A stretch of 64,000 nucleotides of DNA from Lepidurus packardi (taxonomy: Eukaryota > Arthropoda > Branchiopoda > Notostraca > Triopsidae). This document shows positions 2,059 to 41,895 of the stretch, in pieces (the stretch's first letter is position 1; each line of letters opens with the position of its first letter). A model generated the notes under the pieces. That model saw only the letters and a list, made by a program, of their open reading frames with translations. It had not been told where the DNA came from and did no database searches. The stretch spans positions 55,508-119,507 of the forward strand of contig JAKZAN010000095.1 of the NCBI GenBank assembly GCA_023053545.1. The letters are read 5' to 3'. A program made the translations under genes and the position numbers.

Positions 2059-2250
2059 GAAGGTTGATGGGAGGGTGAGGGGTGAGATAGTTAAAACAAA
2101 GATAAGGTGCTTATCTATTGGGTATAAATCTGATTGTTTTTGAGAGTGGTTATTTGCTTTAAGCTTTACAGGAGGGTATGGGCTGAGCACTAACAGTTTT
2201 GATGATGAGAACCATATATTAGCAGCCCCCTTTGATTACAAACAATAAAC

Positions 2251-2655
2251 TCAAGTTTTCGACGGCTGCCTATTTAAATCTTAATCTAAACTGTTGTCTC
2301 CCTTAAAATATGAAGACAAGGGACTCATCGAAATATCATGGGGTTCGGCATCTCTTGGGGTCTCAAATGGAGTTGTTCCAATAGACTTAGGGTTGGGGGT
2401 TGCTGTTCTACTCATGAGATTGTCAGTGCATGAAGAGAGAGTAATGTTTAAATTTATCTGGCTACGAACATTTACTTTCATTTTCAAGTGGACGGGACCT
2501 GTGGAAAGATGGGACACTCGCGACGGGCGCAGTTTCCCTCTTCTGAGAGTTGTATATTTTAAAACATAGGGTGTTCTAACCAGACCTAGAACTACATTAT
2601 TCTATTTTGTATTTACATCAAAGTAGCTAAAATAGTTTTAATGACAAAGAAGCAT
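2251..2655 (-). CDS. Possible small hypothetical protein
   Basis: A 134-codon frame from ATG 2653-2655 to TGA 2251-2253. The last 55 codons read like protein (Ser/Thr/Pro-rich, with TATPNPKSIGTTPFETP), while the first half is AT-rich and looks more like a leader or intergenic DNA. It lies 72 bp downstream of the TBC gene's stop on the same strand, so it could instead be 3' untranslated sequence. No homology is recognised. Confidence 0.3.
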
Positions 2656-2727
2656 GGCATCTGGGAGTTTATTACCAGTGTTGCACAAGAAAAAATGTAG
2701 TCACTCTACTGGGTTAGTACGGTTCCC

Positions 2728-3924
2728 TCAAAATCTTAGATTCGAATACAGCTCGAGCCCACCTTTCTTGCGCTGCAGGGACAGACGCTCCACATTCCAC
2801 TTCAGGGGTCTCTTCACTCCTGCCTCCAGCACTCCCTTTTAGTCTGCGATACTCAAGAACGAACGGAAGTTGCTAACCATATACTCCACTGTCATGCTTT
2901 TGTCTATCTTCATCTTCCGCCACAGCAGATCAAGAGTGTGGAAGCAGACGTCCAACACAAAAGCCCAACCCAGTACTGACATCAGCAGCCAGATCTTACG
3001 GACAGTGTTGGGGCTGAACAGACGTGTGAAGAGTGATGCCAACCACTGCGTCGTAAGCACTGATGTGTCCAGGCCTGCAGCTTCTAGAGCTTTAGTTAGC
3101 TAAGGCGTATGCTGGGAGACTGCCCTTTGGATTTTGGCGTTATACTTTATAAGAATCTGCATGTTTTACTGCATCATTTCCAGGTAGCGAAGTTCTAGTA
3201 ACACGTAGCGTGTGAGTGCCATGGCATGAGTTTCGTCCTGAGTGTACTTCATGCAGAAGACTACCACCAGGTTCATGCCTTGGACGTAACGAGCGCCCTG
3301 GCTCCAGAGAATTTGTCTTAAAATATTTGCCATAACACGTCCTCGCGTAGGTGAGCCCTCAAAGGTGCGCTAAACATCCATTAAGAGTTCCTAGTCGTTG
3401 GCTAGTCTGGTTTCCGTGGTTTTCGTAACAGGTCGGCTGTTGGTAACAGTTCGTGCGTAGAGGCACTCCAACATACCGTGGATTCCGGAATTCTGACTAC
3501 GAACCTGCAGCTGAAACTCTGTGATGAGCTGTTTGTAAAGGCGCCAACCGATGGGCCAATGACTCTTGACCATCCTGATCATAATTACAATCGTTTGGAA
3601 ATCACAATATGCGAGGATACACTTCATAACTCGCTCGCTGTTCCGAATCGTTTTTCTTAATGCGTGAGAATATTTAGGGAACGCTAAACTACTCTGCGTC
3701 GAAGAGCTCTTCATGCTGTTGATGTGGGTTTTTTAGGTGCTCGGAACGGGTTTTGTCGGTGTAAAAATGTAAGAAGAGGCAAGAGGACGGTTCCCCGGTC
3801 TAGGGGGCTGGGATATTTTGTTTCTATGCTAGGAGGGGAGGGTAGGGCTAGGCCGAGGAATATTGCGAGTGTGAGTCCTGTCGGTGAGGGGGGCATCATA
3901 GGACGAGTACAAGGGAGAAGACAT
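2728..3924 (-). CDS. TBC-domain Rab GTPase-activating protein
   Basis: 398 aa with the start at 3924 (an in-frame ATG at 3984 is also possible) and stop TGA at 2728-2730. Residues about 1-70 are Pro/Ser/Thr-rich and unstructured. The rest is a TBC domain, which accelerates GTP hydrolysis by Rab proteins on membranes of the trafficking system. Both catalytic fingers are visible: the arginine finger in LLMDVERTFEG, where the Glu is a TAG codon, and the glutamine finger in ARYVQGMN. The later TBC box reads TTQWLASLFTRLF followed by VRKIWLLMSVLGW. Which Rab it acts on cannot be told. It is divergent from the CFAP97-like gene, with 415 bp between the starts. Family call is firm; the exact start is uncertain. 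Confidence 0.82.
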
Positions 3925-4339
3925 CCTGGAATGGTAGTCGTTTGGAGGGAAGCCATCGAAGCAAAGACTGGATATGAGGTTCATGGAGGGATAGAATTTG
4001 TTTGTGTTTTTATTTGGTAATTTGTATTTGATAATATTATTTGGGGTTTTAGTGCAATATTTTGGAACATATTCCAAAACGCCCATCGGCCAATGTCCCG
4101 ACAGCAGAACCGAAAGTAGCCAGGCGAAACAAGTCAGCAGGAATTTATCCATGAAATCCTAGAACCCAACCAACAAGAATCACGATATTTCAGAGTGGCT
4201 GTGTGCAGTTCTATCAGAGGATTCGACTCGTTCTCTGTCTACCACAGTTGTTAGAATTATTGAATACAGGGAGAACACTGATATGAGAATTCAATAGCCA
4301 GTTACTGCTCACCAATTATATTAAGTTAACACTCTAACA

Positions 4340-5161
4340 ATGAAGCCACAGTCAAAAAGCTACCTCATCTCCAGAACCATCCAGAACAGCAAAAAATACC
4401 TGGCAGAAAAGAATAAGCTCATTTCCTCGGCCAAACCCCCCACTTCAAAACAGCCCACTTCTTGCCACACTCCGCTTGCATAGGCCGAAAGACCCAAACA
4501 ACACGAAGCCAACAACCATACATTTTCTCTTGCACGGAAAAGATCAGGGCGCTATTAAAGCCACAATATCATTGGACTCAACGCCTCAGCTAGCATACCT
4601 CGTAGAAGTATTTTTACTCCTAAATAAACCCACGCTCAAGTCCGACCACCTCTGAACCTGAGTTCTACAAAGGCAGCATAGCGCATTCTGACTGGCTCCA
4701 CGCCCATCGTGCACCGACCAGACCGAACTTCGTTCTACCAACGGCAGACTATAAAGAATAGCGTGAGTTATAACAACCTGAGCGCAAGGTCACAACAGAC
4801 GAACAGCCGGTGCAGTTCCTCATGCTCTAATAAGAGAGATTTTGTGAATGGTCAGAATTAGTAGTAACGACGTGTAATGAAGGAGAATATTCGTCTGGCC
4901 TAAAGGCTTCTAATGGTACAGCCTGAGATATCTCGCAAAGAGCATGTGAAATTCCACACGGAACAGACTTAGTACCGAACTAAACTGTCGCGGTATGCCC
5001 AACCCAGGGAAGAGTCGTAGTTGAGGAAAAGCACAGCAAGCAGACTATCGAACCAGAATAGAAGTTACAAGAGCAAAGAGAACTTCAAAGTAGAACTGCA
5101 TATGCTGTTCCCACAAATCCATAGAAGAGATCGGCTGTCGAACAACCCTTACAGATCGTGA
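4340..5161 (+). CDS. CFAP97-like cilium-associated protein
   Basis: 273 aa, ATG 4340 to TGA 5159-5161, single exon. It contains ten or more in-frame TAA/TAG codons, so it is invisible under the standard code. It is Ser-, Lys- and Arg-rich and basic. Near residues 180-225 it has NEEERRVMKENIRLAERL, then QPEISRKEHVKFHTEQTEYR and LSRYAQP. This matches the spacing of the CFAP97/CFAP97D (hemingway) motif: a basic helix with ENxxLxxRL, then PxIxRxxH, then a tyrosine and a terminal SRY/TRY. That family is linked to ciliary and flagellar axonemes, which suits a ciliate. The assignment rests on a short motif recalled by eye. The Glu reading of TAA/TAG gives EEERR and AERLL, both helix-favouring. Confidence 0.65.
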
Positions 5162-9790: not shown

Positions 9791-12700
9791 TCATTCGAAC
9801 ACTAGTCTCACTGTCGGTGTGTTCTACAACACCTTTGTCTCCCCTTTACGACTAAACGTTATGATCAGGTCGATGTAGCTTTCGCCTTTCTCGCGTTCCA
9901 ACGCAACTTACACCTTTGACTCCAGCCATTTCTTCTTTTCTCCTTCATTACCTGCCTGCTACATCTTAGCACTCAAATACACTGGGATGCTACCCTTGAT
10001 CATGTCCTTGGGAACCAGTTTGTAGGTGCTTTCCAGATGTCCGAACACATCATTAAAAGTGGTGTCGCTCGTGCACTTGATCTCCCATCTATCCCAAATC
10101 GTGGTGCTGAGACCTTCGTGCAGCTTAATTTTCTCGGCCTCCCCTGGTTCAGACAACTGCAACACAGGGACTGCCAGATTTAGGAAGGCGTTACGCATTT
10201 TGTCTAGTTTAATATTCTTCAGATATTTGACAAGCTCTACAGTCTGGAGACCCGCAATCGCTGTTGTAGTGGTAGACAGTGCAGGCACAATCCTACCTGC
10301 TTTAATCTTGGTTGTGACCCAATCCATCAAGTCAAGCGAGTAGTTGGTACTTCTAAGATTAGCCATGGAGTAGATCAGATCAATATGGCCATTGGAGTCG
10401 TCGTCCTTTTCAAAGTCCTCTGCTGCGATTTGATTGCTATCCTTGCTGGCAAGAATGAGGATTCCTTGATGAATGGTTTTTTCGTCCTCATCAGGCTTTT
10501 CCTCCAAGACAGGCTGTTCTTCCACCGCGTCTTCTTCTTTCTTCTTATCCTGCTCCTTCATGATTTATTGGGCTTTCTTGTCTGAAGGCAAAAACTCGGG
10601 AATCTTTATCTTCGCAGCAATCGCACAAATGTTTTATTTCTCGGCTTCTGTTCTGAACTTCTCGGGATAGCTCACTCCGTAAATTTTGGCAATCATAACT
10701 GCGTAACTTGTCACGAACAGTCGCTGTAGAGGATCTTTCGCGTCAAACTCTCTAATAGGGGTAGGAGGACGCTTGGGAAGCTTCCAAAAAGGCTCCCCAT
10801 TCTTGGTCTTGGCGTCCAAAGGGTAGGTGTACAGGAGCTGCATGATATCGTTCCTGAAGTACCTATAAAACTTATTGATCGCCATGAAGATACAGTCATC
10901 AAAGTTATTGGGTCTCTTCTTAAGCATCTTCAAGGACTGTGTCAGGGTCTTGATATCAGACTGCTCGGGCTTGTAGTTTGAGTCAATAGTCTTCAATAAT
11001 CCCTTGGGCTTTAGCGAGAATTTGTGGCCAAACTTATCCTTTGCCCACTCTACGCAATGTAGTGTTTCTTCAGGGAACATCTTGAGTGTGCAGTGAGGAA
11101 TCTAACCATCCTCTGCTGGATCTTGCTTACTACCGTAGCTTTCGGTCAAGTATGGGAGGATCACCTGAACGTGTCCTTTGGGACCCAAAGTACCTGATTC
11201 GAGTAGAGCTACTTTATTGTCTACACACCTTTTGTCGACGTATCTTCTTGCTTGGACATTATCCAAAGCATTCGCAACGATTCTTAAAGATGTGAAGAAT
11301 ACGTCCGAGAATATCTCCTTGGTACCCTCATGCACCTTGTCAAGTCTGGCAGAAATATGTCCTTTCAACAGAGGGTTCATTTGGATTGCACTAGCTGCCG
11401 CAGTTGAAGACTTGGGCTTGCCGACATGCTTTTCTCTGAACAGGAACTGTCTATTGAGGTTTGAAACTTCAATATGATCGGGATCGGTGAGGGTGATCAT
11501 ACCCTTTTACCCGACTCCCAGATTCAACATCGCGAAGTTCTTCAAAAGCTCGCAACCAATGGCTCCAGCTCCTACCATGAACAGCCTACACGACTCAATC
11601 TCCTTCAATAATTGCTCTCCGACCACGATTTCTAACCCTCTTGATCTAGAAGTATTACTAATCTTGATCTTCTCTGTCTCAGTCTTCCAATCTCCAAGAC
11701 CTTCAGGAAGGTTCCTACAGATTTCTGTTACATCGCAATAAAACAGGCTCTTCACTGGCTTGTATTTTTGGGTAATAGCTTTGATGATTTCCTGAGCCAC
11801 AAATCCTCCCATGAATGCACAAAGTGGAGGGAAGCTTCCTGCACAGGTGAAACTGAACATCCGTACATACTTCTCGATCTTTTCAGTGATCTCGTCCTTA
11901 AAGAGGACCTTGTATTCTTCCAGTATGATCGTCGAGTCTTCATAATTCCAAGCAATCGGGACTCTATTCTTCTTTGTCTGGAAGATCTGGTAGGCCTGGA
12001 AACAATAGTGCAGCCACACAGACTCTTCCATCTTGACGAAGTCATAGGTGATCAGGTTGTCATCCATCGGGATCTTGTCCTTGGAAAATGCGAAAATATC
12101 AGCAACCGAAGGGAACTCCATCTGCACTGGCAATTTGATATTTTTAGCTGTCCCATTTCTCACATACTTCGTGAAGCCACGGGTATCCTCGATTCTGAAG
12201 CTGTTGCTGTTGATAGTCACAATCTTGTGGAGAGTAGTGTTGATGCTCTTTTCCTACTTCTACTTCTTCTCCTCAGTTATCTCTGTTTCCATTGCTTACA
12301 TGCCTTCAACTCCTTTTATGAACACCACTTCACCATCTTCATAGGGGTGCTTGGCTCCATCCAGCAGTGTCACCACTGCTTTTTATTCGTTACTGATGTG
12401 CTTGATCATTACTTCTGCTGGCTCCTCTCCATTTTTGTCCAAAACTTCAAACTTAGCGCCGAAATCATTCAGTAGTCTGGAATAGGGTCCTAGACAATCA
12501 GCCGACACAAGTTTGATGTCATTTTTACGGCAGTACTCATCGAGCTGAATAAGTTCTGGGTATGCAAGCTCAGTGGCGAAAACCACCTGATATCCCTTCA
12601 GCATATCGATATTAAACTTCCCAGTAGTCTTACCGATCTTGACATAGGTATTCAAGGCCTGTATTTTGTGGAGACAACAGTCGATTCTCGATTTTCCCAC

Positions 12701-15700
12701 ATCCTTTTCTTCAAAGAAGAATCCTCCTGACAAGTCTTAAAGAGCTACCAACTTTTCTTCGTGGATGGTAAGTTTGTTGCATCCGGAGAGAACAATATTT
12801 TTCACGACCTCTAAGGACATAGGACCCAGTCCGATCACGAACACTGAAGCCTTAGACTGCTTGTTCACAGCATCAATACCCATTGCCCCGATGTATCTGC
12901 TCCATCTATCTTTCACCTTTTCATCATCGATTGTCAACTCCTTCTCTGCATTCGTCAGGTTGTCATAGGTGACATCGACATTAGTCAAATCCTACTCTGC
13001 CTTGATGTCGATTTGTTGCTGCTTCTTTTTGTTCTTGGCAGGCGAGGCAGACTTTTTTACCATGTCTGCTAGACTAGGAGCGGGTAGTTTTTCGAGTTCT
13101 GTCTTAAGTTCGTTGTAGGCTTCCTGGAGCATTTCTCTGTAGCGCCCCTTATTTTTCTTAAACTCAGTACACCATGAAGAATTATGATCGTTGACTAAAC
13201 TGATATAGTTGGCGTCTCTTTTCTCGGCAAACTTGAGCCACTTTTCCGCCTCCTCGAGGATCTATTGCTTTTTCAGATAGAAGTGCCTGCGTATCACATT
13301 CTCGAATCCCACAGGAGGGTTCTTCATGTTGTCGATCATAGCGTACTTCATGTTGCAATATCGCACGATATTGGAATAGGCTTAATTCTTCTTCTCTCCT
13401 TATTCAGTACCTTGCTCATGCTCGAACCCTGGCTCGTTGAAGTAGACGTCATCACTCATAATGATTGCCTGGATTGACACGAGAACCTGGAGAAGGGTGG
13501 ATACTTTGGGATCCCAATTCTCACTGGCATTGCCCCTCCATGTTCCAAGCAAACTCAAACATACTTTTCCGCAGGCATAAAGATTGGGATTGAATCTGAC
13601 CTTACCGCTACCAGTCGTGGTGAGGTTTACTTTAGGAGGTGCATTGGGATAAGAATCCTCGAAATAGATATCAAACAGGAAAGCTCCATGACCGTAGGGT
13701 GTTCCATTGGCACCCATAATCATCGCCTGCATAAAGTCGACTCGTTACTTGTCGCACCTCACGAAAATTGAGTTAGTGTGTTCGATAGGCAGGGCAGTGG
13801 AGAGATCCGCTAATTCTTGAGCAAGACGAACCATCTTCGTATTCGAGTTAGGAGCCACATTGCCATAACTATGGTAATGATGTTTGAGCTTGCCATTTGT
13901 ATCTCTCAAACTGGCATAGTCGAAACGCAGATCCTTCAGGAGTTCCCGATACTTCTTGTCAAGAGGAGCATCTAGCAAGTGTTGTAGCTTTTTGTTATCA
14001 GCGTCCCCACCCAATTCGCTATTATAGTCCTCAACCGCTTCTTAGACAATCGTGAAGATTTCCTAAATTTCATGTGCGAGTTTTTCTGAGAGTTTGTTCT
14101 GAGTAGCGTTAGAAGCATTGGTAGTGCTGTTAGAATCATTTTGAGTGATGCAAGAGAGGAACACACTTGCAGTATGCTTTAAAGCTTTGAACAAAGAGAA
14201 GATCGATTCTGGTTGCTTGGGTTGGTATTGGATAGGGAGCTCAACAAGGGCAGGGGTCAGTTGATGGTGTCGACACATGACCTTGAGAAGTGAAAGCACT
14301 GCCTGGAACATTTTGGGTTCTTTGGAGATCTCAAGTAAAGTTCCTGCTCTGAGGGTAGACTCAATCAAAGGGAGCAAGCAGGAACATAAAACCTCATCGA
14401 GAAGTTTGGCTGGCACCTTCCAATTTACAGCATCCAAGAAGTTCTCGACTATGGAAAGAATGTTGATGATTTGTTCGTTAATGACCTTCCTGGCCTACGT
14501 GTGTTCCACGTTTGTCCACTTACTATTGCTGTGATTGTCTGTACCATACCCCACTCCTTTCTTCTTCTCGATCTTCTTGGTTACTTCCTCGTCCCCTTTC
14601 TTTGCAGAGGTCTAAAGCTTAGTTTCCTATTCCTTGAAGTCTTTGATATATTTTCTGGGTTCTTCCTTAGAGATCAACTGCAGTCTGCCGAGCACAGTGG
14701 CTACAAACTTGTTTTCCATTGACTGGTTGCGTAGGGCTGCACTTCTATCCACACGGAGGATGTCAGCCAGGATCTGGTATAGCTGTTTAATGGACTTGCT
14801 CTCCATTTCTTGCCACTTCTTGGGATCTTCACGGTCGGGTAGCCCGACCAAGATGTTGAAGAGTAGTTCGACAGTTTCTCTTTCACGCATGTACATGGAG
14901 AAGAAGTAAGGGAAAGAAGAGAATGACTTGAGCTCCTGGGTATACTGTATCCATTTCTTTGCACGATCTTGGTTCTTCCATTCGGATACATTCTTGTTCA
15001 CAACATCGATGAAAGTAGAAACGCCATCCTGTTTTTAGAAAAAGTTGAATATTCCCTGCTTGGGTAAGAAGTCCACAGGAGTCTGATTCTATTATTTCTT
15101 GCTACTGGCTCCAGACGACGAACCACCATGAACCTTAGCACTCTATTTCTTGTCTTAAACCTGGGTGATCTGTTTGCTATTGAAGATCTGGCTCACTCTT
15201 ATCTGCATGTTCAGAGGCATCGTCTCAGAGGTTGCCACATCCTTAATCACATCATTGTCAGTCAGCAGGACGTGCATTCTCGAAGTAAACAGTTGGATTT
15301 TATCGACAATCTCAGACTACAAGGGGTGGCCCAAAACCCGCATCAGTTTTTTAACTTCGGAAAGCTTGAGTTCTGTGGGCAGCAAGTATATCGGATAGCT
15401 GCTCAAGTACTGTACGCAGCTCGAAGTTGCTAGATAGTTTTTGGAAAACAATTGTAAGTAGTGTGCAGGGAGGGATTCGCTGACTTGACGCATCAGGGTT
15501 TGTTTCGGAGGGTTGATTTCCTTTGTGCCCAGACACTCTTGATTGGAATCAGACACAACTGCCCAGTATTACGTTGATGCCAATTTCCATTCTCCACTAA
15601 ACCCGATCAGTTTGACATTGTTGCTAGTCTTGATCTCCTCAGGAACCGTCATTTTAGACTTCGTTGCACTATGGAAGCTGAAGCTAACAATACTCCTTCG

Positions 15701-18700
15701 ACCATGCAGAAGGTTGATCTCTCCTCCAGGTTCGGCAAAATTATAGACGTACGAAGTTTCAGCAGACGAATTGTCTGACTCCACTATACTCAACATCGGA
15801 TTTTCTTTTTGATCGACAACCCGACCGATTTAGCCTGACGCTGATATCAAGAACATAAAGGAACTTGAGTCCCAGGCCGCCACCTTCTTGTTCGCGATGG
15901 AAGATGCTACTGTTTGTAATGGCGAGTTAGAATAAAGTCCCACGGTTACAGTTGCATCGCCTTGTTTGAAAGACGACACCATTAAAATGCGTCTGGACTG
16001 CTGCACTTTAGATGACACTCTATTAAAAGCAAACCAAGGGCAGTCCTGAGTCTGTTGGTACAGCAGTTGAAGGTACATGTCACCCTCCTCAACGTTCTTA
16101 AGACTCGAATTGATGAACTCTAATAGCTTATCTTTGTGCGTCTTATTTGTGAGAATCTGGCTGCTGTCAAGGGAATTCAACTTGCTGGAGCTACTTACAG
16201 CGAGATCTTGGCTGGCTGATGTGGGAATTTCGGCCATAGGAGCATTAAGGACATACTGTTTGGTGGTTTCATCATACGTCTGGAAGACTACAGGAACTGT
16301 ATCATATCCATTGAGGATGGGCAAGAAGATTTCTAAATAAAACTCATTCCAGTTTCTGACATTCAACGAACTGAGACTCTCCTTGAGGAGATCGGCGAGA
16401 AGAGCTTAGGATTTGGTGTTGAGAGTGCTGCTCAAAATGAAATCAACAAAGACTTTCCTGAGTTTGGGAGTCGAGAGCACTTGTTTGGCCTCGACCTTGA
16501 ATATGAGATTTCTGAGGAGGTCAATATTGAAATGGTTGACTTCGAACAAGTGCTTGATCTACTTAGCTTTGCAGATATCTGCAAGGAAATTCAAGTAATC
16601 GTGCAACTCTTCTTTCTAGACCTCATTCAGCTAGTTCTGCTGATGCATTAGTCTGGATGCGATCTCGAAGGCTTACTTGGGGATGTTCTTTTGGAGCATG
16701 AAATGAATAACATCCTCACTACCCAGTAACAAAGCACCTAGAACGGTCAGATAGTTCTTTTTATGTTCATGAGCCCATGCTTTTTCGATGAACTACTTCA
16801 CAACTCGAGGGTCTTCTGCAGCAAAAGGTGACTTGGCTAGCAGTAGTGATATGATAAATCTGACCATATCTTGTGATTAGCCATTCCCGAGGATGTTGAA
16901 GATATCATCCACAGTGTACTGGAGAAGGATAGTCTGGCTGCCCGAAGGATTGTGGAAGTTCAATGGCACTAAATTGAGGATCGTCGAGTATTCCTTCACG
17001 AAAGGGAAAATAGACTTATGTTTGAAGGTCTAAACCTTTGAGGTGTCTTTTTCACCAACCTCATTGCGACCACGGAAGAAACTAATCACGAAGTTATGAA
17101 GCTGCAATAGCCTAGTTTCAATAAATCTGTCGTTGCTTCCGATAATCTGTGATACCAGACTGGCACATGCTTGACTATTGCTCAGTGTGAGGTAGAGCTT
17201 GACGATCTCATCTCCTAGCTCACAATTTCGAGAGCTCACATTTTTCAGGAAGGTCTGGACTTGTTTCTGGTACTAGCTTCTCTCCATGATGCTGCAAATC
17301 TTACCCAGAGTCAATCGCAAACGACTTATCAAGTCCTCGTGATCCATCAACTCATTCAGGGATTTAGGATAACGAGCAAACAGACTAATTAGGTCTATTT
17401 CATTGTCAATGTCTTGATTTGGGAAGTGCCCTTTTTATTTGGAAGGAACAGAGCATCCTGAGACGGAGAGGAAGGAGACTGCAGATGTCATATTCTTTCC
17501 TGATTTCTGAGGAACTTGTAGCACATCACCCACTGTTTGGAGTGGAGGCCTCTTCATACTCAGCTTAATATACTTCACAGGTTGATCCCAAATCGGAGAC
17601 TAATTAAGAATAGATGCATTCTCGAGACAGGCGAGATTCAAAGCGAAAACCTTCGTGGAGAAGTTAGAGTAGAAGTCGTCAGGAATCAGTTGGAGTGTTC
17701 CGATGAAGGAGAGCTGAGTGCTAGTATAACCTCCGTAAAGGTTGACTTCTGCAGGGAACACAGAGTTCTTATCGTTTTCATCAGCCAAGACAAATCCAAT
17801 CACGATCTTAGAGACAGTGAGCAGGTCCTCGTCATACCTCAGTAAGATTTCTGCCTCTTCAGTGTAGTCTGAAGAATAAGGAATGGTGAGGGCCACTCCA
17901 GTTCGACTACCGGCGACATTGTCCAACCAGCTCATGTTGGTTCGGGTTCCGTTGTGGAGAATTAGTTAATTTGCGATTTCTTTGCTAACTAGTTTCTTCT
18001 GCTTAGCGATTGAGCTGGATTCCCGATTGATATTATCCAAGATGTACGCGAAGGCCTTCGAGCTGACCATGAGATGGGAGAACGTTTCCGCATCATTGAT
18101 CAAGGAGGAATACAGGTCTTTGAAACCTGCACTGATTTTGCAGAGATAGAGTAACTTGAAGTAGCTGGGGATCCAGTTACTGATATCTGATCGAAGTCTC
18201 TTATAAATCTACAAGATTCTATCCAGAGATCTCTTGACGGATTACACGTCCTGGGTAGCAGTCTTGACGATCAAAATATGAGTATTTTCGCATAGGGACT
18301 GGAATACTTGCAGGTTATGCCCTTTTGTAATCACAGCCGGAGTGTTCTGTTCTTGCTGATTGTCTATGGAACGGCAATTGTTGAGAATATACCATGTGAT
18401 GATATCTTCCAGATCGTCCACGACTGTGGTCTCAGCGTCGATGAAGAATAGCAGTTGATGAGCAATTCTTAAGAAATGGGTGAGTGGGGGTCCTTGGAGT
18501 TTTGCTCCTTCCAAACCTCCAACCATACATTGAGTCCTCAATACGTTTCCAAGGACTGAAACTATACGTTTCTGGAGTGTTGAATCGCGAACAAGGTCAG
18601 GTGCAACAATCTGATTAATGTTAGTAGTCTCGAGATCGAGAATCGAGCTAAAGCATGAAGTCGTGAGCAGGTTAGAAGCAGCGAGACAGGCTTCAGAGTT

Positions 18701-21700
18701 GAATTTAGAGGTATTGCGCAACAGCTCCTCAACACATTTCAGCAAGTAGTTAGCGAAGACAATCTGTGCCTGTTTCTGGTTTAGCATTTTGAGTTTCTTA
18801 AACTCAGTGGGGATTTGCTTAGGAACATACACTGAGCCGAGGAACAAGTCTAAGGAATTTATCAGGTCGCTTAAGGAATCAGCGCTAACTCCATACGTAT
18901 CAGCGAGTATATAGCAGTACTTCATCTCATCTTGCTTTCGAAGTTCGACTTTCTTTGATTTACTCTCAGTCCTTTTACTCCTTGCTAAGAGTATACCAAC
19001 AAGTTTTCTGCCTTCTTCAAGAACTTCGCCCTTGGGTGGCTCGGTAATACAACAAAGCTGTTCCACAGCAACTCTGAAGGTATCGAAGTCCTGTGTGATC
19101 CAGAACTAAAGACTCGCCATGATCTTATATTTATTGATGGCATTTGCAATCAGACTGCGTGCTGCCTCCACATTGCTCCTGACAAGCGAAGGCACGAGAA
19201 CGGAAACATCTACATCCGGGACCCCAGCCACGAGACTAACTAGTTCTTCCTCAAGCAGGTTTTCTACTGACCTCTCAATTAACAGCTGAATGATCTTAGA
19301 ATTCTTGGACTTGTGTATCTTGCAGTAGGAGATCACGTTCATGAGGAATTGTTTGTCGGTCGAGGATGTGAGAGCATAGACGAGAAGATCGTCATCCAGG
19401 GGAATGCCTCTGAAGAGAGAGAGGAGATGATGGGAGCTGTTGCAAATCATGAGGAGTGGGATTTGGAGTTATTTGCTCTGCTTGATCAACTTTCTCAAAA
19501 GAAGAGCTGCTCTCAGGCCGATCGGACCTTGCTCTTTAACTACGAGTTCATTGTAGATCCGAATAGCTAAGTCAACAGGAAGGACGACCTTTTCTAGGGT
19601 CTCATCGGATCTTGTCAGCTACTCAAACAATCTGGCCAATAGCGTGAGAGAATAGTCTCTGCAAGCCGTAGATCCTGTGTTCTTGGGACCCTTCTTCGAA
19701 ACACTGATCTCTTCGCAAACATCATAGATGAAGACCTATGTCTTAGTCTTGGTGGATGAGTACTTTTAGAAGATGGTGAAAGGACTGACTCTAACTGAAT
19801 GATAGAAATTGAGCTCAGCTCGTTTAACCTGGAACAATTCAGGGAACAAAGGTTCGGCTTCACCCGTGTACTTGCCAAATACTTCGGGGATTATCTCCGA
19901 TAGGACGGTATTTTCATTTTATCTGGCTTCGGATTGAGTAGGTAGAACAGTAAAGCTAACTTCGATTATCAGGTACCTGCAATTAATGGGTTCTGCTTAG
20001 TTGTTGTCGTCCAAGACTAGGCCCAAACAGTTGAGTCCTCTCGAAAGAGGGTCTTTGAACAGTTTTTTCATTTGATCTGAGTAAGCATTTTTGGTCAACT
20101 GAATCCAGGCACTGTCTTGGAAATATCCAGTATACTTAAGCTCCTGTTTGAACGAGCCAGAAGTTGAAGAGTCGGATTTGGCAGTGTATACCTTGACAAA
20201 CATCTTAGTTTTGACATCGCTCTTATCACAGGCCAGTAGAATTTTATGGACCTCGAAACAGTTGGTCATATCGATAATGTACTGACGCATGAACTTGGTC
20301 TTAATCATGGCGAATTTAGTCGCGATATGAGCATTCAAAAAATTCGAATCTTCCAGGAAGGTAGTCGTAGCGGAGTGGGCTGCTGCATTTTGTGCCTTAT
20401 CGGCACTTTGTTAGTTTGATGACAGTTGGGTCTGTACGCTGTAGTAGTTAGAGTAAAGTTCCTGGCTGTCATCTTGATTATGGATTTAATTCAGATACCT
20501 AGTGACTGTGTCAGTTAAGGCTCGACTCGACACCACTGAACAGCTTAGCAGGCTCAGGATCAGTCGGAGGCCATGGGGTGTAGGTGCAATCTCTCTTTTG
20601 GCGAGCTGATTCATTACTTTGTCAACTACATCATGTCCTTCAAACTTATGAGACCTGATGAGTTTCTTGATGATAAACTCAACCTTCTTATAGTTAGCAT
20701 CAGTAGCTGTCAAGACATGCTTCTGGATGAAAATCTGAGGATCGATTCTGTCTGCTACCGTCGACCAGCTCCTGGGGTCTCGGGAGATAATGTTGCTGAT
20801 CAAGTTGATGTCATATTCTTTAGTTTGTTTGTTTTCGATTTAGGTTGAGACTCCTTCATAGACATGGTCTCCTAGAATTGTTGACGTTGTGATATTGACA
20901 AGCTCCCAATTTCCGAGATCCTGTGGAAGCTCAAGCCAAGCAGAGGAGAAGCTAGTAGTATTTGCTTCAATACTCAGTCTGATGTCGAGAGGCACTCCAT
21001 TGGAGATATATCGGTTAGCACGATGGTTTGTCTCTTTCTCGTCCAGATCATCAAGGTTGTAAGGATCATTAATGATGCTCTCAACGACTGTGAAGTCGCT
21101 GATAGTTTCCTCGTGGTCCATTTTCATTCCCTTAATTCTGATCTCCTTGATTTCCTCAGTTACCAGAGACAAACAATTAGTAGCACCCTTTTTTATTGTC
21201 ATCTCTTCGTCAGGAAGATCAGAAAGAGTAGTACCTAAGGCGCCCACGAACCCAATCTCGAAGGGGGCATCCTTGTCTTCTTCAAAGTACAATGGCTCGA
21301 TTACCAGATACTTTCTCACACCTTGGATGCCACTCGCGTGAGGAGGGATCTTGACAGTAATCTTCTTTGAAGTCGATGGGAAACTGAAGTATTGTTTGAC
21401 TGGAGCCAGTTTATCAATATCGTCGGTGCAGTAGATGAAGCCTTCCTTAAGAGCATTGACGTTCTTGTGGTTCCCGATCCTCTCCATAACCACTGCTTAC
21501 ACGATCATCTTCTGTGAATGTAAGTGACGCAGAACAAGTCGATAGGGGTCATGCGTTAAGAAACATTTGTCTGAAGGGTATAGGATTGAGCAGACAGGGT
21601 AGTGGTTGGTGGAGCCTGGAGGCCTCGATTCCTCAACTAAGAGGGGCAGGAAGGGCGATGTTGTCTCATAATCAGGCCCCGCAATCTTCGGATAATCTAC

Positions 21701-24487
21701 GATCCCTATACCATCGATTCTGTCAAGCCTCTTTTTCTGAGTAAAGACACAATCGAACTTCACAGTAGTGCCGACGACAGAGATGCCTGTGTTTTGAACT
21801 TGTATTTTTTTGCTTCTTTTTCCTGCACACAGACCATTCTGGCCACTTCTGGTCAGCATCAAATCGAGCGGAGGTTGGTCGCTCGTTGCACTTTTGTAGA
21901 ACAGTATTTTCTGATTGGGCTTATAGATGTTCTCTTCTTGAAGAGTGAGTTCAAATGAATGTTGGAGCAAAGACGTATCAAAGGTGAGCTTGAACCTATT
22001 TTCTCCCAGACTTTAGACCAAGAGATTGGATTTGGCAGGTCCTTCGAGCTGGATATCAGTGTCCTCAAGGATTATCCAACCAAATTGGCACTCCTTCGCA
22101 CGGGACCTGGACGATGAGAAAATATTTTCGAGGCATTCGATGGGTTCCTGATGGATTTGAGTGATCTTCTCATGCAGGGACATCTTGGAGGTGTCGAGGT
22201 AGCCTTTGTTTTCGAGCTTAGACACGAAGATATTGTAGTATTGAGGGTTGGGGCCTAGAATTCTGATCCTGATTCTCTTCGAAAACACTCCGATCACAAG
22301 CACCGGTGCCAACACACAACCAGTTTCGAATATTTTAACTTATATAAGTTTCTCATTTGTCAGTGTTTCGCTTCGACGTTATTCATCTTCCACAGAAGAG
22401 ACGTTAAGGGAGTCATGCTACAGTTATCCCTTAGACACAGGCTTCGTCTACGCAGCAAGTACCGTGGTAGAAGGTGTATCTGTAGACTCAATTGATTCAG
22501 GCATGGCTGGAGCTGGGCTATCACACATTTCGCAAGTCCCCTTTTTGGTATTGATGAAGGTACACATTGGACATTGCCATTCCGCCATGACAGGGACCTG
22601 CGGGATAGGTTTGCTGGCTTTGGGGGATTCTGGCATGGAAAGCAGATAGTCGATAGCGGCATTAGTAGAAACGTTGTTCGTAGCAATCAGGGCTTTGCTG
22701 CATTTAGACTGTTCGAAGCCCATGAGCAAAAGATCTTCGAGGAGTTTGGGATCAGCAGCGATGCTGTTTTTCTTCTTTTTAGACTCTTTATCTTTAGAAG
22801 ACTCTGATTTCTTGAGCAACGGCTCCGCAGGTGATTTGGAAGGCGAACTGTTCTGTTTGATCGACAGCGGTTTGGGTGGGACGGGTTTTGGTCTTTTGGA
22901 GGAAGTCAGACAGTTTGCAAGAATCTTGTAGATCTGAGGCTACTGCACTGAACAACTGTTGCTGGGCTTTTTAAAGTTCTCCAAAGCCTCCTTGTATTTT
23001 TTGAGCTCTGACACCTTATTAAAGCCTTGGCTGATGGAGAATTCGCAAAGCAATTGGGGCAGAGCAGACTTGTAGGCATAAAGCCTCATCACTGAACCTT
23101 CAGATTCGATCAGCAGGAATTTCGGAGTACTCGCAATATTTCGGAATGCCGAGTTGTGCATTATCACTGCCTGGTTATTATGGCGTATGCTTTTGGGTAT
23201 GGAGACAGGAATATGCCTCGGAGGCTTGAAGAAAACATTCTCGATACCCCATCGGGAAAGGCAGTCGAATTCAGACCAAGCGCAAGCATCTACATCCTGT
23301 TCATCCAGATATGGCTTCACGAGCTCCGCCTTGGTTAGGAGCACTCTTAGGGCCTGTCTAAGCTGTTATTCTGATTGCAAAGGATGTGTATAACTTGATC
23401 CCCCGAGCTTCGCGCTCTGCACTTCATGGATCAGATTATTTGTGCGGGTGATGAGCAGGGCGAGATTTTAGGCCCAGTTAGCATTAGATGTCGAGATGTA
23501 ATAATACTTTGCCCTCGCGATTCTCATGACCTTTCCTATCGGATTGATGCTCAAGATCTTGAGGAGATTCTACAGCATGTCAATTTCAGTCTGAGAGAAA
23601 TACACTCTTAACTCATTGGGAGTGAAGTCCATGCAGGCATACTGATCGGGAGTGAATAGGTTGGTCTCAGGATCTCGGTGAATCACTCGGATTGTCTTGG
23701 ATGTCATTATGGCTAGACAGTCCTCGTTTAGCAGCTTTAGGCGAATACCATCTTCCATGCCTACTGCTCTGTCGATACTGCTCTCCTGCTCATCCACGAT
23801 CTCGAGAGAACGGTATTCTGGAATTGCAGCACTCGGGTTATAGTGGTTGGGGAACGGGTTTAGGCTAATTTGCTGGTGTTAGGGATCTGCGGGGAATGGG
23901 TTCAGAACCACAACGTTTCCTTTCTCCTTAATTCGAATGAAAGGGACCCATTCACCACCGTTCAGAGTTCGAGTCGGTTTCCTGCTGCTAGCTGGCACGA
24001 TTCCGTTGACCCAGCAGCTCCATGTGCCGATCTTTTACTTATTGTCTGCTTCGTCTCGGAACTCGATTCTAAAAGTGATTGTGCGGGGACTAGAAGAGGA
24101 TAGTTCGAAGGTCTATTCACGACGCCCAGTTTTGTTCTTAATACCAAAGGTAATCCCGTAGCAGCTCAGGGGGCAGTAGAACTCCCACAAGTGAACTCCC
24201 GACGAAAAAGATTTGGACAGTTCGACCTCGGCCAGACGGGCAGTTTTGGCGACGAGGATGAAGCCAGAAGGAGTAACTTCTGCCTGGTCTGGATCAGGGG
24301 CGAGGAATCGCAAGATATGAGGAGCGGTTAACGGAGTGGTCTGAGTGGAAACAAGAGGAAGGAATATAGGTATTTCTGAAACAAAGTCAGCAAGGAAGTA
24401 GGTGCGGAGCCTGGCTCCTTGTACTGCATAGTGTGCAGGGAGGAGAGGATCTGCGACGCTATGAGATGGGAGGGGCACTTATTGCAT
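9791..24487 (-). CDS. Giant BIRC6-type E2 fused to a complete ubiquitin-activating enzyme (E1)
   Basis: 4,898 aa from ATG 24485-24487 to TGA 9791-9793. I walked the same minus-strand frame through every gap between the long open segments and found no TGA and no need for an intron. Domains: SPRY-like (~30-210); UBA (~578-617, [12 protein letters not shown]); RanBP2-type zinc finger (~637-655, WQCPMC...CEMC); a long mixed beta/helical middle; BIRC6-type UBC (~3551-3700) with active-site Cys3643 in [16 protein letters not shown]6-like tail ends near [10 protein letters not shown] (~3809). The E1 follows from ~3855: inactive adenylation half, active ATP site [14 protein letters not shown] (~4304), [10 protein letters not shown], catalytic Cys4466 in [10 protein letters not shown], and a C-terminal ubiquitin-fold domain ending [12 protein letters not shown] and E1 each match human BIRC6 and UBA1 closely by eye. 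No BIR domain was seen. Inferred role: self-contained ubiquitin activation and conjugation. Confidence 0.9.
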
Positions 24488-34861: not shown

Positions 34862-36873
34862 TCATGAGCTCTTCACTCCTCTCAGCCTTACAGTCTTCGG
34901 TAGCTTGAACCCTCGCAATTGCATCACTTTCATTCCGCCTCCATTCGTGCTATTCTTCGGATCAAGTGCTAATGTCGGCGCCTGATTAGGGTTCGACATA
35001 CTTGCTTTTACAGGAACACGCCCGCCTATTCTCTGAATAGGGGTGCTACTCCGCTGCCTCCGTCCCACTCCCTTCAAGATTCTGCCTCCCTGTTTATGGT
35101 TGCTAGTGTCAAATACCCCCTCGCGTTCGAACTTCTCCTTCAAGGTCTCGCGAAGAGGTGCACTAACGGATACGATTGTGGGTGTCACCCTTTTGTAGGC
35201 CGATGGTTTTATAATAGTTGGATCCTATTTAGCCGGTTCTTTTTTAAACCTGTCAACAGTCTTGACTAGCTGAAAAGCGATATCCTTCCGAACAGAGTTC
35301 AGGTCTTTGAGAGGGCATGTCGGGAGACGAGAGAAAGAGTTGCGATCGAACAAATCCAGAATTGACACCACAAGACACTTTCCCACGTTCTGATATATTT
35401 CTGGAGTAAAGTAGGGATTCTTGTCTCCATAGATTGCAGAGCGAGGGTTGTCATAGTCATCGGGAACGATACCTTGCTTGTCCAGCTTTCGATGCGGATT
35501 GGTAATGGGTGAGAGGTCATTCAAATAAGCTGTAGTGTGGTATCCGCACTCCAAGGTATAGGAATGGAGGATTCCGAATTGTTTGAACATGACGACTCTA
35601 CCGCAACCTTCCTTGGTAAGATCTTCGTTGCGGTCCTTGGAGTTCATCTGCTTCTTCGAGAAGTTAGAACTTTAATACTCGAATGATACACAATTCAGTG
35701 CTAAAAGCCGTGGATAGAGTTGGGCTTCCACTTGTTACTCCAGTGAATCGAGGGCGTTGCCGTAAATGAAGTTTCCCTTACGACCGGCATGCGAATGTAA
35801 ATCCATGTAGAAGAATAGTCTGTCTTCTTTTGAGAGATATTACACCAATTTTCTCACAGCGTAGGGACTAGGCTCCTTGCTCAGGACTGGTTCCAGGTAA
35901 AGCCTGTTGAGGTTTTGTCCGAAGATGTCAGTACGGTAGTGACCGTGGAAAACTCCGTCGGGGTTGAGCATGGGTACAAGCATGAACACGAAGTACTTCC
36001 TCAAAAGCTCAGCTCGCGCGTCCTTTGACAGAAGGAAGAGAATGAGCCCATTTATGGCATGGCTACTCGGAGTTTCCCCGGGATGTACGCGTGCAGTAAA
36101 CAGAACCACCTTTTTCGACGATCTAAAAGCAGGTGGCCTTAAGCCTCCAGGATGTTGCCCACAGTTAGGAAAGAGCCCATCAGCTATTCTGCTTTCCTTA
36201 ATGAGTTCTTTGCCTTGCTGACTACTGATCGTGACGAGATTGATATTTCTGTTCTGCGGAGACTTGACGAATACTTCAGTGTGGAAGTATAGCTCCCTAG
36301 AGTTGCGGTACTGCCTATCTAGGACTTTAAGAAAATTTTCGGCGTCCTCATACGAATGTGGGTAGGTAAATGCAAAGACGGCTTCGGTCTTCTCGAACTT
36401 GAAGTCAAATTGGAGTTCCGTTTCTTGCTGATCTCGGCTCTAAGGGAATAGTGCAATTATAAAGGGGGGACGGGTTGTTATCTGTTGGCGATAGTTGTTT
36501 TTACGATGACAAGACAATTAGGCACTCGTCTCCATTGCGTTTCGTTCTTGTACCGAAATACTGCTCTATAGTGATCCGAAAACTTTGAAACAGCACTCAG
36601 CATGTGCAGCCTCCGAATCGTGAGCCGCATTAGACTCTGTACCGGAACCCCAGACACCGCGAAGTGGAACCAACTCTTTGAAGAGGATTCATACTGGGTG
36701 CCTGCGCAGTCGTTAGCGGGAGTGAGGGCAAGCGAGTTGTAGGACAAGTACTCGACTTTTTGAAGATTACCGCTGTCAAAGTCGCTAGTAAGAGTGATTT
36801 CGGCAGGAGGGTCGAAGAGCTGGGCTTTGAAAGTATTATGGTGTGGACTTTTAGAAGTAACGAGCTTGATCAT
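34862..36873 (-). CDS. CCP5/AGBL5-like cytosolic carboxypeptidase (tubulin deglutamylase type)
   Basis: Inferred as complement join(34862..36439,36505..36873), 648 aa, 65-nt intron, stop TGA 34862-34864. The N-terminal beta domain has SDFDSGNLQKVEYLS, typical of the family, and WFHFAVSG. The M14 zinc site is complete: HxxE in ARVHPGETPSS, the third ligand in MDLHSHAGRKGNF, and the catalytic Glu in SYTLECGYHT. GHYRTDIFGQNLNRLYL supplies substrate-binding Asn/Arg. CCP5-type enzymes remove glutamates, including the branch-point glutamate, from tubulin tails, a modification important in cilia. The tail after residue ~530 is basic and unstructured. Alignment to AGBL5 runs through FEYESSNFSKKQM. 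Confidence 0.9.
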
Positions 36874-37154: not shown

Positions 37155-38933
37155 TCAGAACTCAGCATTTCCTGGCACTCTGGGGAATGGCACCACATCC
37201 CTAATGTTCTCGATCCCTGTACACATCATCACCAAACGCTCGAAGCCCAGGCCGAAGCCTCCATGAGGTACTGTACCATACCTTCTCAGGTCAAGGTACC
37301 ACCAATACTTATCCTTTTCCAAGCCTACACTCTCGATCTTTTGCTCCAGAACGTCGAGTCTTTCTTCTCTTTGTGAACCGCCCACAATTTCTCCGATCTA
37401 AAGTCATAGTTAATAGAATGAGGTTGAATAAAAAGATGTAATTACCTCAGGAGCCAAGACATCGAAAGAAGCCACAGTCTTGTCGTCCTCGTTTAGACGC
37501 ATGTAGAAAGCCTTAATGTCCTTAGGGTAGTTGTAAAGGATGGTGGGCTTGAAGAACACCTTGTCGCAAAGATATTTCTCGTGCTCAGAGGCCAGGTCGA
37601 CTCCCCACTTAAGTTCGTTTTAGAATTTGATGCCATTGTTCTTAATAGCGTCCTCCAGGATGGTAATAGCCTGAGTGTAGGAAGCACGAGCGAAGGGTCC
37701 TGCCACGATTCCTTGCAGATATTCGACCAAACCCTTCTTCACCTTGTCGGCCAGGAATTTAAGATCCTCAATGTTATTCGCAAGTACGAATTCAATGCAG
37801 TACTTGATGTAGGCCTCAGCGCATTCCATAACATCAAACATATCGGCGAAGGCTAGCTCAGGCTCAATCATCCAGAACTCAGAAATATGTCTAGTAGTAT
37901 GGGAGACTTCTGCGCGGAATGTGGGTCCGAAGGTGTAGACGTTCGAGAGGGCACAGCAATAGTTCTCAACAGCAAGTTGTCCCGAGACAGTGAGATTAGC
38001 AGGCTTCTTGAAGAATTCCTTGGTGTAGTCGATCTTGCCATTGACTTGAGGAATATCTTTTATGTTTCCTGATTCGGGCAGGATAGTGGTGACCTGGAAC
38101 ATAGCGCCAGCACCCTCGCAGTCGGAGGTGGTGATGAGCGGTGTTTTAACATAGAGGAAGCCGTTGTTCTGGAAGAAAAGATGCGTAGCGTAAGCCAAAC
38201 TGTTTTTGACTCGGGACATGCAGCCCATAAGTTGAGTTCTGGGTCTGAGATGGGCGATTTCTCTGAGATACTCAGGCTTGAAGTACTTTCCACCGAGAGG
38301 ATACTTATCATCGTCACAGCGACCAAGAATCTTCACAACTTCATTGGCATGACCAGCGACACTGATTTCGACTGCCTGACCCTTTCCTTGGGACTTGATC
38401 AACTTGCCCTTGACTCTGAGGGAGTATGACTTCTTGATCTTCTTAAGTTCTTCAAAGTGTTCAGCATCTTTAGTGATGACAATCTGGAGAGGAATGGGGC
38501 TGCTTCCATCCACAAGTTCGACGAACAGAAGAGTGTCTGCTGCTTGGAGACGGGCAGAGTGAGCCCAGCCAGCCACAACGATATCCTTGTCAAGGTATTT
38601 AGCGGCATTAATGTGGACCTATTCGATGCGAATGATTTCTCCCACAAGGAACTGCGGTTTGCGGCGGTTGAGATACTCGGAAGGAACCTCAAACTTGGTA
38701 GAGGGATTCAGGCGAGATTCGATGCCCTCGGTTTTGAGGGTAGGGACTACGCCTTTGGCACTCTAGGTGATAGTATTTTTGGCATATCGCATGTTGAAAA
38801 TTGTGGAGTGTTCATCTTGAGTGTGGGTGGCAGCATTTTGACCATGAGGAGCCTGGGGCTTTTTAGGCTGAGTCTGCTTGGGGGCATGCTTGATAGCATA
38901 GCGAGTGTTGAAAAGAGTGGCTTGTTCTTACAT
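37155..38933 (-). CDS. Asparaginyl-tRNA synthetase, cytosolic type
   Basis: Inferred as complement join(37155..37397,37446..38933), 576 aa, 48-nt intron. It charges tRNA-Asn. Residues ~110-210 are the OB-fold anticodon domain ([20 protein letters not shown]). The class II core has motif 2 ([20 protein letters not shown]) and motif 3 ([20 protein letters not shown]), then the usual ending [10 protein letters not shown] directly followed by TGA, which fixes TGA as a stop. [19 protein letters not shown] has TAA where E. coli has Glu. Residues 1-105 are an extension with copies of a TLF/TIFxxRY motif ([16 protein letters not shown] and [14 protein letters not shown]), shared with the small gene 428 bp upstream. 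Codon 2 is TAA where that gene has GAA. Confidence 0.93.
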
Positions 38934-39361
38934 TGTTGGGATATGATGTGTTCTGTGTCTGTTTTATAATGTGCTGAATATGATTATGAGGTTGTTTGGA
39001 TATTAAAACACTTGGATATTCTTTTATGTGGGGTGGGAAGCGTCATACACTGTATGAGAATTAAGTGCTTCAGTCCAATACTAAATCAGACATATTCTGG
39101 ACTATTAACTTGAAGTAAGGAAATTTCTTTTCAGCTCCCTCTCTCGCCCTATCCATCTATATCAAAAGTATCAGAATTTCTTTATTGAAGACGACCAGCG
39201 CAATCAATATCAACCTATCATTCTACATGGATACAAAAAACTAAGAGAACTGACAACCAAATCCTTAAGCAAAAATATTGACGCTGTGCGGTTATCTATT
39301 ATCCACTGCATACAGACTAATAACACGCCGCTTGTCTTTCTCTCCATGCATGCGCTAGCAC
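38934..39361. other. Intergenic region upstream of the AsnRS gene
   Basis: AT-rich, with no coherent frame. It separates two genes with related N-termini and so may include material from the duplication that produced them. Confidence 0.4.
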
Positions 39362-39568: not shown

Positions 39569-39783
39569 GGGAGACGGGATAGAGGATTGTATGGGGTATA
39601 AAATTAATAGATTATGAGAATCTTACAAAGAAAATGAAGGGTATTGTTGAATAGCGTGCTGACATTGGAACAGTAAGTGTGAGCCTAAAATAATCCTGAA
39701 CGGGGGAAGTGTGGGACGATAGTATGAGACACACATAAGATAGTTTAAAGGTATTTCATAATAAAAGATATCCCAACTCAAGG

Positions 39784-41895
39784 ATGCAGGAAGAATCATC
39801 AGAGGGTTCCAGCTGCCCTAATTAGCAAGATGATGATGATGATGATCTTTTCTTCTAGGATGACTAGGATAATGCTGACCCTGAAGCACGCAGACTCGCC
39901 ATCCTCAAGTCTCTCCAGCCGAATCTCTTCAATGACCCCGATGACAACAGCTGCTAGTCCCAGTCCCAATACTCGGCCCCCGACAACACCCAGAACCAAA
40001 CAAACAACTAGTTCTACCTCAACGACAAAAACGAGTTACTGGAGCACGCCAACAAGATAGTTGACCAGAAGAAATAAGGTCGTCGCCAATAAATAAAATC
40101 CCTGACCGAAAATACGACTAATAGACTCAATGATGTCAAGCTGTTTCACCTCTGCAAGGCTCTACGTAATATCATCATGATGATGCGCACATATCATCCT
40201 CATAATAACAAGGACCGGGTTCTTTCCAAACTCCCATTAAGATGTCTACAGGAAATCAAAAGGTGTAAGGGTGCGCCTTTTAGCAGGAGGTCGGATCTAC
40301 TTATCTCCATCGCTAAAGAACATCGAGTATTTTCACGGGCTGATCTAATGGGTCTTTGCGATTCCCTGGACATCCACTTCCGATTCCTTGGGTTAGTAGA
40401 GCTTACAGACTTCAAAATAAAAAAAGATATTAAGTTAATCAACACTGGCAAGAACAAAAAAGTTAAACGCAAGAAGTCAAAGGGTTCGGGTCCCGACGAT
40501 GAGGACGAACATACTAATTCCAGGTCACATAATGTTCCTTTGAGCAAGAAGAACTCGAAGGCAATAAAGAAACTCCTGCCTCTCGAGATGATCCACGAGG
40601 ATCCTACTGAACCACTCATGAAGTCCGCAAAAGCTGAAAGACCCCTAAGGGCGACAGTAATACCAAAGGTAGCATCTTCAGAGAGTGGAGAGCCAGACTA
40701 TGTGGATCTTTTAGATTTTGCTAACCCCAGGGCTAAGAAAACAGGAGCAGCTCCCCCTTCTTTGCGAAAGTCGGTACCAGGGCAAAAAGCCTATACACAG
40801 ACAACCTTTTTCAGGAACCCTGAGAACGAAAACCTAACCTGGCTTGACATCTATGACGATTCCCATCAGAAATGGAGAATTTTCAACACTCTTAGCTTCA
40901 CGATCTACGATGAGGAATCACTTAAGAAAGAAATGAACTAGTTAGATTGTGTTTTTGTGTACTCTATCGAACCTATGCGGCCTGCATCTTGGGCCTAGCC
41001 ACTTTTTTAGATGTTATCACCTTAAGTGTTCTAGCTAGAGGATCAAAGCAATCGCTTTACCAACTAAATCTATGCACTAAAGAAGAAGCGAGGTTTTCTA
41101 CGCCTTAAAAGGACATTTGCAGAATTCTGTGAGTTGTTCCAGTTCCGATGTTCGGATCAGTACCTATCCAAGATACAGGTGGAGGCCAGAAAAGCACATG
41201 AAGATTTGACTAGAGACATCCACTACAAACAGTTCCCCAAGAACAACAGCTAGATGTTGGTGTCTGACTATTTCATCACTGAGCTGACTATTGGCAAGTT
41301 CTCAGCCATCAGCAGAGACGCCAAACCTCTTCCTGGCATGTATTTCGAGGAGCGCCCAGTTTATCTACGCAAAAACATCCAGCCTCTTCATTCTATATAT
41401 GGTTGGGTTGACATAGGCCGCAAGATTAAAGCTGGCGAGAAACCTTACCGCGTGACTCGTGGTGAGCGTCGCAAAGATAAAGAAGTTAACCTGTATGAAT
41501 ACAGCCAGACAGAGTCGTTCCGCATTGAAATTGATCAGGATGGCCACTTTATGAGGAACGAGTTCAATAACTTGTATGTTCCTGCTGTGTTCTCCCTTCC
41601 CGAAGGTACGCTGCTGCTGGAGACAGGGGTGAACGTGAACTACGTGTGTCGGAAAAATTAAATCCCCTACGCCTAGGTAGTGCAAGGTTTTTCGAGCATG
41701 GGTATTCCGAACAAGATCGGGACACTGATATACTCGCGGGACAAGGAGAAGGTGTGGAAGTTGTATGAAGAGCGCCGGGCGTATCTTGAGAGCAAGAAGG
41801 AGGAAGGCGCGAAGTAGAAGCTGGTGGAGACGTGGAAGAAGTTGTTCAAGAGTATAAAGGTAGTGGACAAGTTCAGACAGATGAGAGTGAACTGA
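39784..41895 (+). CDS. 703-aa hypothetical protein with acidic N-terminus
   Basis: ATG 39784 to TGA 41893-41895, single exon, with many in-frame TAA/TAG read as Glu. The N-terminus is acidic, with six Asp codons from a GAT run at about 39828-39845 (NEQDDDDDDLFFEDDEDN). A helical region (HLCKALRNIIMMMRTYH) and a basic linker (KNKKVKRKKSKG) follow. The C-terminal ~300 residues look folded (RPVYLRKNIQPLHSIYGWVD, VPAVFSLPEGTLLLETG) and end in a charged helix. I recognise no family. Continuous good codon usage and coherent sequence across the TAA/TAG codons make it a firm gene. Confidence 0.75.

Follow-up and report, generated by a model that had tools for sequence, protein, structure and literature searches.

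A candidate self-charging ubiquitin ligase of ciliates that joins a BIRC6-type giant E2/E3 and a UBA6-type E1 in one reading frame

The sites used by E1 and E2 enzymes overlap, and the two normally have to separate before the ubiquitin cycle can continue; UBA6 is the E1 for ubiquitin and FAT10. To our knowledge, Cap2, a protein of bacterial CBASS defence systems, comes without a giant scaffold. Solved structures include two trapped UBA6-UbDha-BIRC6 complexes (9qgw and 9qhi) and a third complex titled dUBA1-UbDha-dBIRC6 (9qgg; we read the “d” as Drosophila), whose E1 falls in the UBA1 clade. Because 9qgg pairs dBIRC6 with a UBA1-clade E1, the BIRC6-UBA6 pairing is not universal. In the portions of the literature available to us, UBA6 and BIRC6 are described as partners that act on LC3 in human cells (PMC6863627), an enrichment of UBA6 with BIRC6 is documented (PMC10827748), and a 2025 review assigns UBA6 exclusively to chordates and echinoderms and gives Cap2, a single chain with E2-like and E1 parts, as the E1-E2 fusion (PMC12355090); the target of Cap2 is a cGAS-like nucleotidyltransferase (PMC10449767). 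Here we describe a single reading frame in a 64,000-nucleotide stretch of contig JAKZAN010000095.1 (hereafter the window), from the Lepidurus packardi assembly GCA_023053545.1, which encodes a giant BIRC6-type protein that continues without interruption into a complete E1.

Read from stop to stop, the frame runs from 24598 to 9791 on the minus strand and holds 4935 amino acids under the peritrich code (translation table 30), with its sole TGA at the end. The coding frame proper covers 9791..24487 (ATG at 24487, TGA at 9791-9793, ~4898 amino acids), its start being simply the first ATG. All features given below for this protein (P0001) lie on the minus strand in window coordinates, and residues are numbered from 24598, which adds 37 to the numbers of an initial annotation of the locus (its Cys3643 and Cys4466 are Cys3680 and Cys4503 here). 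That annotation had read one polypeptide with a BIRC6-type UBC domain and a full E1, each with its active-site cysteine, and this reading was borne out in every part. The UBC (E2) domain occupies residues 3591-3745 (13364..13828; Pfam UQ_con, 4.2e-20), and its catalytic Cys3680 (13559..13561) is a cysteine in all 122 of the fused relatives described below that are covered at this position (the alignment of the other 2 of 124 stops short). A search of the Protein Data Bank (PDB) with the UBC part gave BIRC6 at up to 269 bits and UBE2O at up to 132 bits; UBE2O, an E2/E3 hybrid with a related UBC and no E1 attached, was rejected as the identity of the E2 on these scores.

The E1 part spans residues 3897-4935 (9794..12910) and contains the IAD, FCCH, 4HB, AAD, SCCH, and ubiquitin-fold (UFD) domains in canonical order, with ThiF of Pfam matched twice. 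We located the FCCH at 4072-4155 (12134..12385; Pfam E1_FCCH, 8.1e-13), the four-helix bundle at 4181-4227 (11918..12058; Pfam E1_4HB, 1.3e-7), the ATP loop GAGAIGCE at 4343-4350 (11549..11572), the catalytic Cys4503 (11090..11092), which aligns with C632 of human UBA1, the SCCH at 4509-4764 (10307..11074; Pfam, 3.4e-62), and a divergent UFD at 4835-4923 (9830..10096), whose Pfam match of 0.0021 lies under the cut-off. The UFD region is nonetheless confidently folded in the predicted E1 model, which matches solved E1s end to end, the last residue included. Across the fused E1s aligned, the catalytic cysteine is kept in 118 of 118 rows, as are R57, D504, R515, D576, and H643 (human UBA1 numbers), and K528 is kept in 117; the rows behind these counts were chosen without cysteine-containing motifs.

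The same architecture recurs widely. Searches for relatives with residues 3300-4930 returned 72 giant proteins, the E1 part alone had 2093 matches, of which 120 were listed, and for the BIRC6 part 120 of 228 were listed. In all, 124 database proteins hold both a BIRC6-type UBC and an E1, with the UBC upstream in 124 of 124. The “Rosetta-stone” link between BIRC6 and E1 proposed in the initial annotation is supported. The species among the fused matches include Tetrahymena utriculariae, T. malaccensis, four Paramecium species, Pseudocohnilembus persalinus, and Moneuplotes crassus, and all fully named species among the listed fused relatives are ciliates. Judged from these sequences, the fusion is ciliate-wide and reaches far beyond the peritrichs, to which the annotation had limited its outlook; its presence in Tetrahymena, Paramecium, Pseudocohnilembus, and Moneuplotes rules out a peritrich-only event. 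Among the best 120 of the 228 BIRC6-part matches, an E1 ThiF is likewise present in 73 of the 74 strongest and in none of the 46 weaker ones, so that the fused protein differs from these non-fused BIRC6-type proteins by ending in an E1. Three transcript-derived open reading frames labelled complete (P0009, P0011, and P0089) carry both parts, and 26 chosen contigs of 16-18.5 kb are occupied to 96-99.5% by the fused gene alone; these contigs are gene-sized chromosomes or transcripts, and the fused gene is therefore one unit either way.

The junction itself is tightly constrained. BIRC6 homology stops at residue 3841 and E1 homology begins at 3897. The 55 residues in between (3842-3896; 12911..13075) form a linker, a short connection between two complete ends, and the UBC through the E1 end comprises ~1350 residues. 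Across 12911-13075 only the fused frame is open, with TGA present in both other frames of the strand. From the E2 cysteine to the E1 start, we measured 218 residues in the window protein and 212-239 (median 218) in the 103 of 124 other fused proteins where the start motif was found. The standard deviation of this spacing (5.2, in 101 rows with all landmarks) is close to that from the ATP loop to the E1 cysteine within a folded domain (4.7) and far below that from the E1 start to the ATP loop (18.8); as this stretch also takes in the last part of the UBC, it bounds the linker rather than measuring it alone. The linker contains a motif, VDVTYD (3874-3879; 12962..12979), of which V-D-V-T-Y is unchanged in 6 of 6 alignment rows; the pattern V/I-D/N-V/M/T recurs in all 20 linkers displayed, with x-Y coming next in 12 of the 18 that are displayed far enough. 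The E1 model begins at this motif, and its first 20 residues have a pLDDT of 76-77, higher than expected for a wholly loose tail in such a prediction. Both the length of the linker and its contact with the E1 would thus seem to matter. A TGA hidden by a sequencing error near 13000-13100, which the annotation had named as a way to refute its reading, is not credible given the like spacing in 103 fused proteins, and with 124 proteins carrying both parts in the same order, we reject a hidden stop, an assembly join, and a chance frame alike.

Upstream of the E1, the protein resembles animal BIRC6 (BRUCE, Apollon) in its giant size and in a profile alignment of 594 columns (hhalign, E 7.2e-66; residues 3226-3841, 13076..14923) that runs through the UBC to within ~85 positions of the end of the animal BIRC6 profile, with FNPNLY and GKVCLS flanking the catalytic cysteine. 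Against five BIRC6-like proteins of non-animal appearance, the alignment extends to 1403 columns (E 1.4e-96) and defines a BIRC6-like scaffold through the UBC at 2247-3841 (13076..17860). The protein therefore has the BIRC6-type UBC together with its C-terminal scaffold, by which the BIRC6 family is recognized. Unlike animal BIRC6, it has a UBA domain at 616-660 (22619..22753; Pfam UBA_7, 8.9e-10, and UBA, 3e-5) and gives no match to PF12356, and a BIR domain (PF00653) was found neither in P0001 (at E up to 10) nor among the Pfam matches of the listed fused relatives; we therefore call it BIRC6-type and not an inhibitor-of-apoptosis protein. A possible RanBP2-type zinc finger follows the UBA domain (674-697; 22508..22579; Pfam 0.06, under the cut-off), with C676, C679, C689, and C692 unchanged in 6 of 6 alignment rows. 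When the 6-row alignment was used as a profile to search the PDB, none of the 60 matches listed (of 260) reached N-terminal of profile position 3212.

Models of bacterial E1-E2 defence systems matched the adenylation repeats of the window protein only (best E 2.7e-6), at 4304-4456 and, for one model (PDLC00835), at 3916-3996; none matched the UBC, and we reject a relationship to the bacterial Cap2 that would extend over the E2 and E1 parts alike. Cap2 does show that the initial annotation, which knew of no described E1-E2 fusion of this kind, was mistaken on that point (PMC12355090, in the sections available). In the literature searched, itself available in part and leaving aside subscription papers and older E1/E2 surveys (which may mention it), we found no account of an E1-E2 fusion in ciliates or in any other eukaryote.

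The E1 part has the full E1 architecture and is, by sequence, most like UBA6 in PDB searches and in the best trees. Human UBA6 was the closest E1 in PDB searches (625 bits, versus 569 for UBA1), and in the comparison of the E1 model with solved folds UBA1 and UBA6 tied. Unlike the fused E1s, UBA6 is a free protein, and its start reads YSRQ where most fused E1s have (W)SRY. We built a large E1 tree from 173 of 193 rows (E1 match of more than 850 residues) plus 6, i.e., 179 rows, a smaller tree from 34 chosen of these, and an archaeal-rooted tree from 30 of the 34 together with L034 and L035; these trees contain few UBA1s (6 or 7 rows), and their non-fused members are those most like the fused E1. 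In the 34-row tree, the fused rows make up a single clade (18 of 18; 100/100), in which the window E1 lies beside those of Tetrahymena and Pseudocohnilembus, with Paramecium further off, and UBA1, including the ciliate's own, forms a separate clade (100/99). A topology uniting the ciliate UBA1 and the fused E1s was rejected (p-AU 0.0012), and so was the idea that the fused E1 is a copy of the ciliate's own UBA1. When rooted with a Thaumarchaeota E1, on the adenylation domain only and a very long outgroup branch, the tree joins the fused E1s to UBA6 (98/100). UBA6-type E1s also occurred in sponge, coral, molluscs, Balamuthia, and Pelomyxa, among the matches listed and in the E1 trees. In the tree of the BIRC6 part, with P0200 and P0073 omitted, the 18 fused rows again form one clade (100/100). 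One clade per half is consistent, in these alignments, with a single fusion. P0089 and P0195 are among the deepest-branching fused rows. L034 (NYVR01000102.1) is a UBA1-type E1 of 1098 codons on a contig labelled as a Planctomycetota metagenome-assembled genome, likely a eukaryotic contamination.

We consider it likely that these sequences represent a fusion, spread over the ciliates, in which a giant E2/E3 of BIRC6 type and an E1 of UBA6 type form a ligase that charges itself, in cis or across a dimer. In such a protein, the C-terminal E1 would adenylate ubiquitin with ATP and then load Cys4503, which would hand the ubiquitin to Cys3680 of the UBC tethered through the short, length-constrained linker, either within its own chain or to the partner across a BIRC6-like dimer, while the BIRC6-like scaffold would present substrates to the loaded UBC. 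This would amount to a privately charged one-chain E1-E2/E3 working alongside the ordinary UBA1 pool. Activity, transfer in cis, substrates, and privacy of charging are what we infer from sequence. A bolder version, to which we give slightly less than an even chance, holds that the E1 charges only its tethered E2/E3, separately from the UBA1 pool, that the linker is locked in length and carries a docking motif, that a single fusion event took place at the root of the ciliates or earlier, and that a UBA6-BIRC6 axis is far older than animals.

Several observations weigh against these readings. The UBA6 type of the fused E1, which the annotation had left as UBA1 or UBA6 pending a tree, is what the best trees support, yet two rival rootings keep a p-AU of 0.0505 and 0.0735 and are not firmly rejected, nor is a UBA6 clade that leaves out the fused E1s (p 0.10). 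Adding the long-branched, non-fused P0200 lowers the support of the fused clade in the BIRC6-part tree to 50/3, and inner branches differ between the two halves, with P0020 and P0058 placed differently; because of this disagreement, the trees do not demonstrate that the two parts of every copy were strictly inherited together. The UFD, the domain on which E2s dock, has a mean pairwise identity of 0.353 in fused E1s versus 0.505 in UBA6; as the FCCH is likewise less conserved (0.398 versus 0.555), the UFD gives no clean sign of a private E2. Two predicted proteins, P0073 and P0077, each on a 24801-base contig, are separated by a break in the linker just before a Met: P0073, which alone of the 74 strongest BIRC6-part matches has no E1 ThiF, stops inside the linker, where P0077 starts. 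Finally, a second fused-type E1 of the UBA6 kind in the same assembly (contig C87; 7366-9948 of the segment L015 = G000:C87:87000-96947), sister to the window E1 (100/100), is cut by the contig end before the upstream part, so its fusion is unseen. Searches of the assembly, which scored the best candidates only, did not find that upstream part, and with residues 2301-3200 they matched only the window's own gene. Just past this second E1, at ~980-6082 of L015, lies a long repeat-rich stretch that is open in several frames on both strands.

The strongest competitor, which we regard as unlikely, is that the fused E1 acts mainly as another general-purpose E1, serving many E2s in trans, with the fusion fixing only amounts or place. 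The completeness of the E1 in the model, UFD included, fits this, and human UBA6 also serves UBE2Z (PMC12355090, in the sections available); the tight spacing and the kept linker motif instead suggest that geometry matters, and the ciliate has a separate UBA1. Post-translational cutting of a polyprotein, with E1 and E2 acting as two proteins, would agree with the split of the P0073/P0077 pair in the linker, but P0001 contains no significant protease family (Peptidase_C28 at 0.18 is at noise level) and the linker is conserved in length and motif beyond the needs of a mere cut site, which makes this improbable. More doubtful still is a catalytically dead E1 kept as a scaffold, for which the weaker conservation of UFD and FCCH could speak and which runs against the retention of every catalytic residue checked in 117 or 118 of 118 rows. 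An artefact (an overlooked TGA, a false join in the assembly, or the wrong genetic code), for which only the P0073/P0077 pair of another organism could be cited, can be dismissed in view of 124 other proteins in the same order, named genomes and transcript-derived frames included, the like spacing in 103 of them, and telomeres at both ends of the contig.

This contig, C84 (119.5 kb), carries CCCCAA repeats at its left and GGGGTT repeats at its right end, as would be expected, on sequence, of a complete macronuclear chromosome. The separate ciliate UBA1 lies on C219 (57.5 kb), also telomeric at both ends, and TAA and TAG serve as sense codons on both contigs; the standard code would put 70 of them within the frame of the fused gene. 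At these codons, relatives have Glu more often than Gln in alignment A1 (0.21/0.28 versus 0.13/0.14 for TAA/TAG), a lean hardly present in alignment A2 (Glu 0.21/0.24, Gln 0.20/0.22); which of the two is meant is irrelevant to the fusion. The assembly also holds C1-C3 (12.9-14.0 Mb), with a UBA1 gene on C1 matched in four pieces, and it seems from its contigs to be a mix, in which the ciliate (C84, C219) may be a companion of the organism that owns the 12.9-14.0 Mb contigs. Neighbouring frames in the window are ordinary genes, paired here with families in the order listed: Sir2 (61016-62404, plus strand), a class II tRNA synthetase (37407-39161, minus), carboxypeptidase M14 (34865-36688, minus), a TBC RabGAP (2731-4179, minus), and Rad4 BHD3 (39700-41892, plus).

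If P0089 and P0195 come from non-ciliates, they could date the fusion to before the ciliates. For the UBA6-BIRC6 partnership, the fusion would add independent evolutionary evidence from outside animals. A natural eukaryotic fusion would also show that the overlapping E1 and E2 sites can be reconciled, and it may offer a ready-made single-chain system for E1-E2 transfer. The gene is present in Tetrahymena and Paramecium, where knock-out and tagging would be possible at once. Judged from the sequence, a step that usually takes separate proteins appears to fall to one molecule in these ciliates.

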